Shown here in pieces: positions 10,880 through 45,547 of a DNA stretch of 45,547 nt. This DNA comes from Candidatus Sulfotelmatobacter sp. (GTDB lineage: Bacteria > Acidobacteriota > Terriglobia > Terriglobales > Acidobacteriaceae): positions 1-45,547 of the forward strand of contig JASHOT010000001.1 in NCBI GenBank assembly GCA_030040965.1, in the 5' to 3' direction. How positions within the stretch are numbered: position 1 is the first letter of the stretch; the number at the start of each line of letters is the position of its first letter. Under the pieces are notes generated by a model, which worked only from the letters and a program-made list of their open reading frames with translations, was not told where the DNA came from and searched no databases. The translations under genes and the position numbers were made by a program.

Positions 10880-13234
10880 ATGAGATCCGTCGCTTGGTTG
10901 AGCGCTCTTATTTTATTCTTCGCTGCCGTCGCCTTTGCCTCGATTTTCGGCTCGGTTCGCGGCATCGTTCATGATCCGCAGCATCGTCCGATTCAGGGCG
11001 CACAAATTACGTTGAAGGCGAAAAATTCCGATTGGACGCACTCTTCCGATTCCAACAATAACGGAGAATTCACCTTCACTTCCGTTCCCATCGGTGACTA
11101 CACCGTCACAGTAACTTCGAGGGGCTTCCGGGAGGTCCAACAAGATGTGATTGTTCAGTCGGACACGAGTCCGATACTTCACTTTGGCCTGGTTGTCACG
11201 GGAGCGAGAGAGAGTATTGAAGTTTCGGAGACACCAGTTGAAGCGACGACCCAGACGGTCACGCCGACGACCACATTGAATCGCATCGACATTCAGGAAA
11301 CACCTGGCGCCGACCGCACCAACGGCATGCAGATGCTCACCGACTACGTCCCCGCCGCCTACATGGTGCACGACATGTTGCACATGCGCGGAGGCCATCA
11401 GGTCGAGTGGGCCGTTGACGGTGTTCCCATCCCCAACACCAACATCGCCAACAATCTCGGTCCGCAGATCGATCCCAAAGACATCGACTATCTCGAGGTG
11501 CAGCGCGGCAGCTACGACGCCGACTACGGCGATCGCACGTACGGCATCTTCAACATCGTGCCCCGTACCGGCTTCGAGCGCGATCGGGAATGCGATTTCG
11601 TCATTACAGCCGGGAATTTCTATCAGACCGACGATCAGATCAGCTGTGGAAGCCATACCGCCCGCTCAGCCTGGTACACCAGCCTCAACGGCAACCGCAG
11701 CCAGTACGGCCTGATGACTCCCATTCCGCAGGTCGTCAACGATTCCGCCAACGGCATGGGTGGATTTGCCTCGTTCATCTTCAATCCCAACCCAAAGAAT
11801 CAATATCGCATCGTTGGCTCTCTGCGCCGCGACTACTACCAGATTCCAATCGATCCGAATCTCAACTCAACCGGCAATCAGATTCTCGTAGCGTCGGGCC
11901 TGGTGCCCAGTTCGGGCTTGCATGATGCCGAGGTCGAGCCTGACGGCTACACGACTTTCTCCTGGGTGCATACCTTCAGCCCAGAAACCTTGCTGACTGT
12001 CTCGCCGTTTTATCACTACAACGGCGCTGACTATCACGGTGGACCGAACGACCTCCCCGTCATCTCCAGCGTCACGCAGACCGCCAACTACGTCGGCTCT
12101 CAGGCCTCCATTGGCACCAACTTCCACAATAACGATCTTCAGGCTGGCGTCTATGGATTTTTCCAGCACCAGTACAACTACTTCAGCAACGTGTACACCT
12201 GCACTCAAAACTGCCAGGAGTATGGTGTAACCAACCCGACGAACTACCCCCCCTCTTCCATCGGTGTCAATGGAGGCGTCGCTGCATTCTTCGTTAACGA
12301 CAAATTCAAAGTCACGCCGTGGCTCACACTGATCGCCGGCGTGCGCGAAACACAGTTCAATAGCGCGCCCCCAGCGTCGTCGCAGATTCCCAGCGTGTCG
12401 GAGCACTCGACCGCTCCGCGGCTGGGCGCGGCCGTCCGCATTCCTCATCTCAACTGGACGTTCCGCGGATTCTACGGCTACTACTATCAGGCTCCTCCTC
12501 TTTCAACCGCCACGAGCGAACTTCAACAGTTGGGCGTCAATCAGGGCTACGGCTTCGCCCCGCTCCATGGCGAGCGCGACATTGAATGGCAATTCGGTGT
12601 CATGATTCCAGTCCATGGCTGGAGTCTCGACGCCGATAACTTCGAAACTCGCGCCCATAATTGGCTCGATCACAACAACATCGGAGACTCGAACCTCTTC
12701 TGGCCCATTACCTGGTCCTACGCGCAGATTCAAGGCTGGGAACTCACGCTGCGCTCTCCCAACATCTTGCATCACGGCCAGTTCCATCTCGCTTACTCGA
12801 ACCAGTTTGCGCAGGCCACTTCGCCCATCACCGGAGGCTTAATCTGTCCCCCTGCGATGCCAATATGCTCGCTCTACCCGCCTCCGGGTCTTGGACCCGT
12901 GGACCACGATCAGCGCAACACGCTGAACGTCGGCTTCAACAGCAGCCTTCCATGGCATGCCTATGCCTCAACCAACGTTTATTACGGCTCCGGATTCACC
13001 AACGGACTGTACGGAAACCCACTGGCTCAATATCCCGGCCAATATCTGCCCAGCCACAGTGCTGTGGATCTTTCCCTGGGGAAGACTTTCGCCGAGAGGT
13101 ACACAGTTTCACTAACAGCGGTCAACGTGGCCAACCGCCGCGCGCAGCTTGACAACAGTCTGACCTTCGGAGGGTTCCACTGGGACGAACCGCGTCAAAT
13201 CTATGGAGAATTCCGTTATCGCTTCAGCTACTGA
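10880..13234 (+). CDS. TonB-dependent (Oar-like) outer-membrane receptor with carboxypeptidase-regulatory domain
   Basis: A 784-residue exported beta-barrel protein. The signal peptide (SALILFFAAVAFASIFG) is followed by a carboxypeptidase-D regulatory-like domain (about 24-105: GSVRGIVHDPQHRPIQGAQI, NGEFTFTSVPIGDYTVTV). Next comes a plug region with LHMRGGHQVEWAVDGVPIP and the motif DIDYLEVQRGSYDADYGDR. The C-terminal half is a long aromatic-rich barrel ending in FRYRFSY, the terminal aromatic expected for outer-membrane insertion. Such receptors import ligands or serve as surface binding proteins. The substrate is not readable; the Cys/His protein upstream hints at a metal. AAAGGA lies about 12 nt before the ATG, a somewhat long spacing. 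It converges with the LuxR-type gene across a hairpin. Confidence 0.9.
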   Translation: MRSVAWLSALILFFAAVAFASIFGSVRGIVHDPQHRPIQGAQITLKAKNSDWTHSSDSNNNGEFTFTSVPIGDYTVTVTSRGFREVQQDVIVQSDTSPILHFGLVVTGARESIEVSETPVEATTQTVTPTTTLNRIDIQETPGADRTNGMQMLTDYVPAAYMVHDMLHMRGGHQVEWAVDGVPIPNTNIANNLGPQIDPKDIDYLEVQRGSYDADYGDRTYGIFNIVPRTGFERDRECDFVITAGNFYQTDDQISCGSHTARSAWYTSLNGNRSQYGLMTPIPQVVNDSANGMGGFASFIFNPNPKNQYRIVGSLRRDYYQIPIDPNLNSTGNQILVASGLVPSSGLHDAEVEPDGYTTFSWVHTFSPETLLTVSPFYHYNGADYHGGPNDLPVISSVTQTANYVGSQASIGTNFHNNDLQAGVYGFFQHQYNYFSNVYTCTQNCQEYGVTNPTNYPPSSIGVNGGVAAFFVNDKFKVTPWLTLIAGVRETQFNSAPPASSQIPSVSEHSTAPRLGAAVRIPHLNWTFRGFYGYYYQAPPLSTATSELQQLGVNQGYGFAPLHGERDIEWQFGVMIPVHGWSLDADNFETRAHNWLDHNNIGDSNLFWPITWSYAQIQGWELTLRSPNILHHGQFHLAYSNQFAQATSPITGGLICPPAMPICSLYPPPGLGPVDHDQRNTLNVGFNSSLPWHAYASTNVYYGSGFTNGLYGNPLAQYPGQYLPSHSAVDLSLGKTFAERYTVSLTAVNVANRRAQLDNSLTFGGFHWDEPRQIYGEFRYRFSY

Positions 13235-43404: not shown

Positions 43405-43467
43405 CGGGGAGTGTTCATTTGCCGGTGAATTCCGGGGTCCGGTGACTTCTTACATAAGGTGACTTTT

Positions 43468-44583
43468 ATGGCATTTCCTATCACCCGTCTGCGCCGCCTG
43501 CGCCGATCGGCGGAATTGCGCAACTTTGTCGCGGAAACGCGTCTGACGCCCGATGCATTTGTCTATCCCATGTTTGTTTGCCCGGGGGAGGGAGTGCGGA
43601 AGGAAGTGCGCTCCATGCCGGGCGTGTTCAATCTGTCGGTGGACGAGGCGGTAAAGGAAGCGCATGAGGCGCATGGGCTGGGCGTGCCGTCGGTAATTCT
43701 GTTCGGCCTGCCGGATAAGAAAGATGAAGTGGCAACCGGCGCATGGGCAGACGACGGGATTGTGCAGCAGGCGGCGCGGGCGATGAAGCGTGAAGTGCCG
43801 GGGCTCATTCTGATGGGCGATGTGTGCCTGTGCGAATACATGTCACATGGGCATTGCGGAATTGTGAAGGAGACTCCGCTGGCGAAGTCGTTGGGCGCGG
43901 CGGCGCGGGAAACGCTCCAGGCAAGCGCGGCGGTGGCGGTTCGGAACGGCAAAGACAAAAAAAAGGCGATCGAGAAAGTGGCGGCGCAGATGGAGAAATA
44001 TGCGCGGCAACTCGATTACGAGATCGTCAATGACGCTTCGCTCGAGTTGCTGGCGCGGACGGCGGTTTCGCTGGCGAAGGCGGGGATCGACATTATTGCG
44101 CCGTCGGACATGATGGATGGGCGCGTGGCGGCGATTCGCAAGGCGCTGGATGAAGCCGGATTGATCAACACACCGATTCTTTCGTATGCGGCAAAGTTCG
44201 CGTCGGGATTTTACGGGCCGTTCCGCGAAGCGGCGGATTCTACGCCCCAGTTCGGCGACCGGCGGTCGTATCAGATGGACAGCGCGAACATTCGCGAGGC
44301 GATGCGCGAGATTGCGCTCGACGTCGAAGAAGGCGCAGACATGATCATGGTGAAACCGGCGCTGCCTTATCTCGACGTGATTGCGGCGGCGCGGGAGAGA
44401 TTTGATTTGCCATTGGCGGCGTATCAGGTGTCGGGCGAGTACGCGATGATCGAGGCGGCGGCGCGCAATAACTGGATTGATCGCGAGCGCGTGATGATGG
44501 AGTCGCTGTTATCCATCCGGCGGGCGGGCGCAAGCATTATCCTGACGTACTACGCGAAGAAAGCAGCGAAGTTGCTGGGGTAG
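43468..44583 (+). CDS. hemB: Porphobilinogen synthase (delta-aminolevulinic acid dehydratase) with an extra internal segment
   Basis: Condenses two 5-aminolevulinates to porphobilinogen in tetrapyrrole synthesis. ATG 43468 has AAGGTG eight nt upstream (GTG 43459 is a weaker alternative), giving 371 residues against about 325-335 usual. The Zn-type cysteine motif [14 protein letters not shown] (C120, C122, C130) and Schiff-base lysines K243 ([13 protein letters not shown]) and K296 ([10 protein letters not shown]) are intact. Between HCGIV and VNDASLELL lies a charged, helical stretch (about 134-182, [20 protein letters not shown]) that normal HemB lacks. A CRP-like site and -10 element precede it. 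It converges with the ORF6N gene across a hairpin. Confidence 0.96.
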
Positions 44584-44721: not shown

Positions 44722-45303
44722 TTAACGAGCCGCGCGGCGAACTGCGGCCAAGGACCGATTCTGGCGTTTCCCGGGTTCGGTGGAAAACTCGAAGCCGATG
44801 CGGCGGTGGTGAGCCGGAAGAGGAGCCATGAGTTCGTGGAGGGCTTCGACAAGTTCGTGAAGATCGGCGTCGTGCGCGTCCAGCCGGGCTTCGAGTTCGG
44901 CCAGCTTGGAAACAACTTGCCGATTGAGCACAAAGGCTTCCCGCAGCTGTACAAACGCACGCACCACGAAAAGGCTCATCGCGATCGCGCGCTTCGAGTT
45001 CAGAACAGTCGCCGCCATGACGGCTCCGTGTTCGGTAAAAGCGTGGGGGAGATGACGACGGCCACCGTGAGATGAACTTGAGGTCGCAAATTGCGACCTC
45101 AAGTTTCGGTACTCGGCGCGGGTCAAAGTAAAGAGAAAGTCGGATGGGAAGCGCTGCGGATTGCGCTTGATCTGCTCGTTCAAACGCTTCACGGGAACGC
45201 CATAAAGCTCGGCCAAATCCGCATCGAGAATGACTCTTTGATTGCGCAAGACGAGGATCTTGGAGCCAGCTTTCTTAGCAAGGATGATAGCGGTTTTGTT
45301 CAT
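44722..45303 (-). CDS. ORF6N-domain protein
   Basis: A 193-residue protein with the phage-type ORF6N DNA-binding domain at about 15-105: ILVLRNQRVILDADLAELYG, VKRLNEQIKRNPQRFPSDFLF, YRNLRSQFATS and GGRRHLPHAFTEHGAVMAATVL. The C-terminal half is helical (VSKLAELEARLDAHDADL) and may mediate oligomerisation. ORF6N domains occur in phage and mobile-element regulators, but no phage genes are nearby. ATG 45303 is used; a TTG at 45330 lies inside a palindrome. The codons for residues 67-76 (NLRSQFATSS) form a perfect 15+1+15 palindrome, which recurs identically in the gene's own leader. This suggests self-regulation. Confidence 0.88.
   Translation of the reverse strand: MNKTAIILAKKAGSKILVLRNQRVILDADLAELYGVPVKRLNEQIKRNPQRFPSDFLFTLTRAEYRNLRSQFATSSSSHGGRRHLPHAFTEHGAVMAATVLNSKRAIAMSLFVVRAFVQLREAFVLNRQVVSKLAELEARLDAHDADLHELVEALHELMAPLPAHHRRIGFEFSTEPGKRQNRSLAAVRRAAR
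45075..45105. promoter_or_regulatory. Perfect palindrome inside the ORF6N coding sequence
   Basis: AACTTGAGGTCGCAA, one base and TTGCGACCTCAAGTT, exact reverse complements. On the minus strand it encodes NLRSQFATSS, a conserved part of the ORF6N domain. Identical to 45316-45346. Confidence 0.8.
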
Positions 45304-45315
45304 GGGCTGAAGGCC

Positions 45316-45346
45316 AACTTGAGGTCGCAAATTGCGACCTCAAGTT
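45316..45346. promoter_or_regulatory. Identical palindrome in the ORF6N leader
   Basis: The same 31-bp palindrome as 45075-45105 ends 13 nt before the ORF6N ATG, covering positions -13 to -43. As DNA it could be an operator. As RNA it would form a 15-pair hairpin over the ribosome-loading region. Confidence 0.75.
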
Positions 45347-45363: not shown

Positions 45364-45369
45364 ATCATA
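45364..45369 (-). promoter_or_regulatory. Possible -10 element for the ORF6N gene
   Basis: TATGAT on the minus strand, 18 bp before the leader palindrome. The transcript would start near 45357 and include the palindrome. No good -35 is visible, so this is tentative. Confidence 0.3.
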
Positions 45370-45547
45370 TCAAGCGGAGGGAAACAACGACACAAAAGAA
45401 CGGCAGTGATGAATAAGAGGTGTTCCAACTCGGGACTACAACTGCTATCAACAACGCTGCCACCTCAAAAGACTTAAGCAGCTCGGGATGTCTTTTAACC
45501 AAAATTGCGCATAGTTGATGTACATTCGAGCGCTCCAAAATCCTCTG
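45365..45547 (-). other. Open frame from the right edge, uncertain coding
   Basis: A minus-strand frame without stops enters from the window edge and ends at 45365-45367 (about 60 codons). The first part (ILERSNVHQLCAILVKRHPE) is protein-like; the last part is hydrophobic and compositionally odd. It could be the tail of a gene that lies outside the window, or non-coding sequence. Confidence 0.2.

Follow-up and report, generated by a model that had tools for sequence, protein, structure and literature searches.

Genes of ORF6N proteins, a widespread family of DNA-binding proteins in bacteria and phages, carry, within the codons of their own DNA-binding domain, a palindrome whose bases follow the residues of the predicted DNA-reading helix. 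The gene considered here lies in a 45,547-nucleotide stretch of DNA from Candidatus Sulfotelmatobacter sp. (called the window here) and has this palindrome twice, once in the coding sequence and once in the leader. From the comparison of sequences, the ORF6N product is probably a dimeric helix-turn-helix protein that binds an approximately 27-bp two-fold site in its own gene and most likely represses itself. Binding to the symmetric site is strongly indicated by covariation of protein and DNA; we infer that the protein dimerizes and propose that the gene repressed is its own. The features of the locus are as follows.

44722..45303, minus strand: ORF6N-domain gene of 193 residues, ATG at 45303, PF10543 match
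45075..45105, minus strand: in-gene palindrome (proposed self-operator), codons 67–76 (NLRSQFATSS), core GGTCGC
45316..45346, minus strand: leader palindrome with the same sequence as the in-gene copy, 12 bases from the ATG (−13 to −43)
45364..45373, minus strand: extended −10-like element TTGATATGAT, with 17 bases between it and the leader palindrome
45163..45192, minus strand: recognition helix H38–47 of a predicted helix-turn-helix; K39, R40 and E43 predict the core GGTCGC
45046..45096, minus strand: loop residues 70–86, candidate wing (mean pLDDT of 66 for residues 71–80)
44881..44994, minus strand: long helix 104–141 of the predicted structure, putative dimerization helix

The window protein matches PF10543 with a score of 113.5 bits (E 5.5e-33), against a curated Pfam cut-off of 27.8. 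The Pfam scan returned ORF6N and a weak Sec2p match only, and thus no KilA-N; the ORF6N and KilA-N domains are akin. This is the single ORF6N gene of the genome, and it converges with an ORF at 43459–44583 that we take to be hemB-like. The initial annotation had described two identical 31-bp palindromes, one encoding residues 67–76 and the other preceding the ATG, and we confirm both copies at these places. Each consists of 15-bp arms around a single central base. The two copies share a 32-bp direct repeat, beyond which the flanks differ. A chance origin had been judged unlikely, and indeed 100 shuffles of the sequence yielded no 31-mer palindrome. In the predicted structure, the in-gene palindrome codes for the end of helix 62–69 and part of a low-confidence loop. 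Foldseek gave no PDB match at E ≤ 0.001.

We collected 80 ORF6N loci from species genomes (the best 80 of 312 relatives) and fetched a further 30 loci from the window's order, where a match was present in 52 of 298 genomes. One gene had been entered twice (L007 and L087) and was removed from the counts of 119 genes and 109 loci. For each gene, we chose as site the best centre up to 30 bases from the aligned codons (61 centres), or up to 45 bases for the left-out genes described below, and called it palindromic when 8 or more of its 10 inner pairs matched. By this measure, 118 of the 119 distinct genes, which come from many phyla, are palindromic at the aligned codons, and in 61 of the 119 the palindrome is perfect over 13 pairs. 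Run elsewhere in these genes, a search of this kind met the 8-pair threshold 19 times in 475 attempts. Phage and plasmid members, with 35–49% identity, behave alike: all 13 fetched among the 25 records listed reach 8 to 10 inner pairs. Across the 80 loci, a scan detected 88 strong palindromes, 60 of them at an ORF6N site, and none remained when the bases of these loci were shuffled once.

Some genes have more than one such element. Three Nitrospira ORF6N genes, L038 (2715–2743), L049 and L054 (2717–2741), have a second in-gene palindrome approximately 62 bases further on; its inner core is unchanged in L049 and L054, and one arm is altered in L038. A Bacteroidetes ORF6N gene (L032) lies between two copies of a perfect palindrome and contains a related one (1195–1225, 1579–1609 and 1913–1945).

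What is kept at the site is the symmetry of the DNA. The initial annotation had regarded the encoded peptide as conserved, a view that the relatives do not support: there the peptide varies (LRSQFATSS, LRYQFGTSR, LTLQFARSR, ALIFQIGISK) and the symmetry stays. Seven genes even use an alternative reading frame, giving EVVANCDHL-like peptides, with unchanged cores. Because both peptide and frame differ, it is the DNA symmetry that is maintained. Counted from the centre, positions 2–13 in 118 genes give 1416 cells, of which 1377 are Watson–Crick pairs, and three or four pair types occur at 9 of these 12 positions (for example, GC 76, AT 36 and CG 5 at position 4, and TA 52, CG 49 and GC 8 at position 13; n=118). 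The initial annotation had suggested a comparison of synonymous conservation at these codons; synonymous constraint here proved to be in large excess, in favour of its reading. When synonymous codons were resampled with the protein fixed and each gene's own codon usage (111 genes, one counted twice), 526±16 pairs were expected and 1376 were seen, that is, 12.4 of 13 pairs per gene compared with 4.7. Codon choice cannot explain the palindrome. The coding region is under strong selection for DNA symmetry, and the A/V, T/I, S/L and R/K variation of the protein would partly reflect this operator constraint.

Palindrome positions 4 and 7 track residues 39, 40 and 43 of the recognition helix, and the correspondence can be written as a code. 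In 82 genes, E43 goes with G at position 4 (49/49), Q43 without R40 with A (24/24), R40 together with Q43 with G (6/7) and R43 with C (2/2), while K39 goes with G at position 7 (50/50). Applied to left-out genes, the rules from the 82 genes predict 55 of 57 and 30 of 30 bases; the left-out set, from which entries identical in both residues and site had been removed, includes relatives of the rule-set genes. The palindrome itself was missing in 4 of 63 left-out genes (the first gene of L043, L198 and two matches in L201). A tree from which these columns were left out implies at least 23 changes at position 4. The protein state is concordant with this position in a mean of 10.9 of 11 supported independent pairs and never opposite, and for position 7 in a mean of 5.8 of 6. 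Residues 79–84 are associated with the outer palindrome bases, possibly through linkage. Neighbouring paralogues follow the same code, every site in L023 and L075 matching its own protein. L023 has three ORF6N genes within 4.9 kb, with different palindromes that each fit their own recognition helix. Covariation and left-out prediction both indicate that the specificity of the protein corresponds to the site at its own gene. This suggests that site and DNA-reading helix evolve together, so that the gene would travel with its own control switch.

The initial annotation had proposed looking for the upstream copy in relatives. Defined as the gene's own motif in the leader window with at least 18 of 24 letters, it is present in 34 of 109 distinct loci, and 2 of 736 random segments matched at the same level. 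Within the window's order, 23 of 30 loci have a copy, 234 to 291 bases upstream of the in-gene centre. Leaders fit the motif of their own gene better than swapped motifs (744 compared with 679±10; 0 of 20000 permutations), and five aligned leaders keep the palindrome while their flanks diverge. In one locus (L110), the in-gene site and a site 383 bases upstream have even an asymmetry in common. The upstream copies of L019 and L053 sit in a neighbouring ORF6N match. Leader and gene have the same six-base core in 23 of the 34 loci and different cores in 11 (L006, L089, L090, L101, L108, L112, L114, L019, L033, L071 and L081). The earlier proposal that the protein binds both sites is strongly favoured by the sequences: the bases follow the recognition helix across many phyla and leaders fit the site of their own gene better than those of other genes, although the core differs in 11 of the 34. 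In genes with E43, the leader has GC at position 4 in 9 cases and AT in 4, a looser adherence to the code than at the in-gene site, which for this reason looks primary. Since 75 of 109 loci have no leader copy, repression through the leader cannot be the general function. Capture of an operator by the gene, another suggestion of the initial annotation, fails to explain a nearly universal in-gene site with an optional leader copy.

No sigma-70 consensus pair was found in the window leader. The extended −10-like element has similar counterparts in L006, L007 and L086, but not in L005, and in four of the five aligned leaders a TTGnTATGAT element lies 13–17 bases before the palindrome.

If the sites are operators, the following mechanism would apply. 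A dimer would read each half-site with helix 38–47, the loop 70–86 perhaps reaching outward. The primary cognate site would lie inside the gene, where the segment that codes for a tolerant loop near the DNA-reading helix would double as operator; another copy would stand just downstream of the likely promoter in the window genome and in most of the relatives fetched from its order. Abundant protein would shut down its own transcription. When bound, the leader copy would block initiation or early elongation, and the in-gene copy would act as a roadblock to the elongating polymerase. With an operator inside the gene, self-control would be kept wherever the mobile gene lands. Elements of this scheme are familiar. 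Intragenic operators such as lac O2 in lacZ and gal OI in galE are also repressor sites in transcribed coding regions, sometimes paired with an upstream site, but they lie in target genes, outside the codons of the repressor's own DNA-binding domain, and we know of no family-wide occurrence of such sites. Autorepressors with a leader operator have a palindrome near the promoter and start codon. The ORF6N leader palindrome resembles these in its place near the start codon, and differs in being optional, whereas nearly every gene has the copy in its coding sequence.

We searched for the core GGTCGCAANTTGCGACC in 23 genomes picked for an ORF6N protein with K39, R40 and E43. It occurs 26 times in 19 of them, and its reversed control never occurs in the same 23. 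The genomes of L005, L006, L050 and L067 have no exact core; the in-gene sites of these four have a changed centre. All but one of the 26 exact sites are within, next to or shortly upstream of an ORF6N match, the exception being at 64450 of contig 12 in genome G344. In the window genome, the 25-bp core occurs a third time, on contig 72 at 11292–11316 (L001, 1501–1525), 10 bases upstream of the ATG that opens a cytochrome c-like ORF and adjoining a likely ribosome-binding site. No further copy with up to 3 mismatches was found in this assembly of 5.87 Mb (93.6% complete). Among 29 aligned leaders of the cytochrome c-like ORF in the same genus, one other has a near palindrome (L227) and one a decayed palindrome (L231) at this same position, and 26 have none.

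A related perfect site is found in 21 of 45 genomes of the window's genus, and 5 of the 19 genus loci fetched (L233–L251) are solo. Overall, solo intergenic palindromes with no ORF6N match nearby were seen at L117, L123, L124, L125, L126, L233, L238, L241, L242 and L248. The Pfam model found no ORF6N in the solo-site family genomes of L117, L123, L125 and L126; ORF6N was likewise not found in the genome of L241 (G370) or, by protein search, in that of L233 (G124), both with a solo site. The solo copy of L126 is 192 bases from a transposase-like ORF.

The main rival to self-repression, which we hold to be possible but rather improbable, comes by analogy. The in-gene site would be a self-recognition tag: the protein would target other DNA or rival elements, and the cognate carrier would be spared or would titrate the protein, as with BstA and its aba element. 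In this prophage defence system, the BstA protein contains a KilA-N-like domain, and the cognate element aba, which confers self-immunity as DNA, overlaps the beginning of bstA; it includes the first 34 bp of the gene together with 29 bp upstream and requires terminal CCCGCC direct repeats (PMC8585504). The two systems are alike in the DNA-binding domain, as far as ORF6N is akin to KilA-N (the Pfam scan gave no KilA-N for the window protein), in a short cognate element overlapping the gene, which for ORF6N is borne out by covariation, and in that the element appears to act as DNA. They are unlike in that the ORF6N site is a family-wide palindrome in the codons of the DNA-binding domain, whereas aba is placed at the gene start with direct repeats (PMC8585504). 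A tag would suit a cognate site that lies in the gene itself, is nearly universal and differs between neighbouring paralogues, as well as the near absence of the core elsewhere in the 23 genomes and the better fit of the protein to the in-gene site than to the leader. Against it, copies in the leader that follow a promoter-like element speak for regulation, and aba, with 63 bp, needs its direct repeats, a palindrome being unmentioned in the article (PMC8585504).

The initial annotation had also considered an RNA switch, in which leader and in-gene sequences form hairpins in the mRNA or pair with each other and so control translation or decay. The window leader does fold, at −26 kcal mol−1 with a z-score of −6, and this fold may have some effect as a by-product. 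Selection for an RNA stem would favour G.T, but the mismatches at positions 2–13 comprise 6 G.T and 16 A.C, with no enrichment of G.T. Symmetry also extends up to the centre, where a hairpin cannot pair: position 2 is A–T in 118 of 118 genes and position 1 in 85 of 118, and positions 2–3, inside or beside any loop, are symmetric in 118 of 118. Together with bases that follow the recognition-helix residues, this makes the RNA reading very unlikely. Arm-to-arm correction by template switching yields symmetric changes and could keep the symmetry without selection on binding, and the existence of solo palindromes agrees with such an origin. It predicts neither the link to residues 39, 40 and 43, nor the constant place in nearly all members, nor the fit of the leader, and we consider it highly improbable. 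Equally improbable is a mobile short palindrome, REP-like or of the type known from Rickettsia, that landed in gene and leader. The three core copies in the window genome and the solo intergenic copies in relatives, including that near the transposase-like ORF, are in its favour, but three copies in 5.87 Mb are few, and in relatives the site stays aligned to the codons of the family and changes as the protein changes. REP palindromes are described as high-copy, extragenic elements of 20–40 bp (PMC3733652); the ORF6N palindrome is of similar length, but many extragenic copies were not found, the core having three copies in the window genome, one of them within the gene. Palindromes inside coding sequence are also described for mitochondrial genes of Nematomorpha; those inverted repeats are longer, at up to 284 bp, and the start of the abstract names no protein that reads them (PMC6649704).

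No description of palindromes in ORF6N or BRO-N genes appeared among the titles and abstract starts of the open-access papers listed. The founding paper on the domain is reportedly that of Iyer and colleagues in 2002, and ORF6N is seldom named in the open-access literature searched. Sequence alone now provides the family with a prediction of its binding site and with a code from residue to base, and every such gene would bring a testable predicted operator without the need to guess targets. A broader reading, to which we give an even chance, is that ORF6N and BRO-N form a superfamily in which the codons of the DNA-binding domain double as the DNA read by the protein, each gene carrying its own address. 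If so, site and reader would travel and diverge together, and each copy would therefore control or recognize only itself, even beside paralogues and on phages or plasmids. This would amount to a built-in self-recognition of mobile regulators in bacteria and viruses, including E. coli dinD and phage antirepressors.

Of the 13 BRO-N (PF02498) genes fetched from the window's order, 7 contain a strong palindrome in the coding sequence. Three of these 7 (L164, L170 and L172) code for VVTNC, in the frame used by some ORF6N genes, and L172 has a leader copy too. Apart from this copy, BRO-N flanks reach 9 inner pairs in four cases; because the flanks attain similar pair counts, the evidence is only suggestive that BRO-N genes share the in-gene layout, less uniformly than ORF6N.

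For DinD, we used the K-12 gene and 14 genes hand-picked from 40 plasmid and 252 phage records. In this set, 12 of 15 DinD or antirepressor genes have a palindrome at the equivalent place with a score of at least 6. Shuffled sequence can attain a score of 6, so the argument is the constant place. One E. coli dinD allele, in which the N-terminal part differs (L252), and Thiothrix dinD (L253) lack the in-gene palindrome; L253 has a palindrome in its leader. Bernardetia dinD (L255) has nearly identical palindromes in gene and leader. E. coli dinD is a familiar SOS gene, and in K-12 (L177, 3934–3965) the codons of the N-terminal domain contain a palindrome with 16-bp arms and 14 of 16 pairs, so that the idea could be tested in a standard strain. 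It exceeds the next-best palindrome of this locus, which resembles the LexA box of dinD. One Campylobacter phage record (H70; MG065686.1, 50367–51188) encodes a protein with complete identity to E. coli DinD across its 274 residues, apparently through contamination by host DNA or through misassembly.
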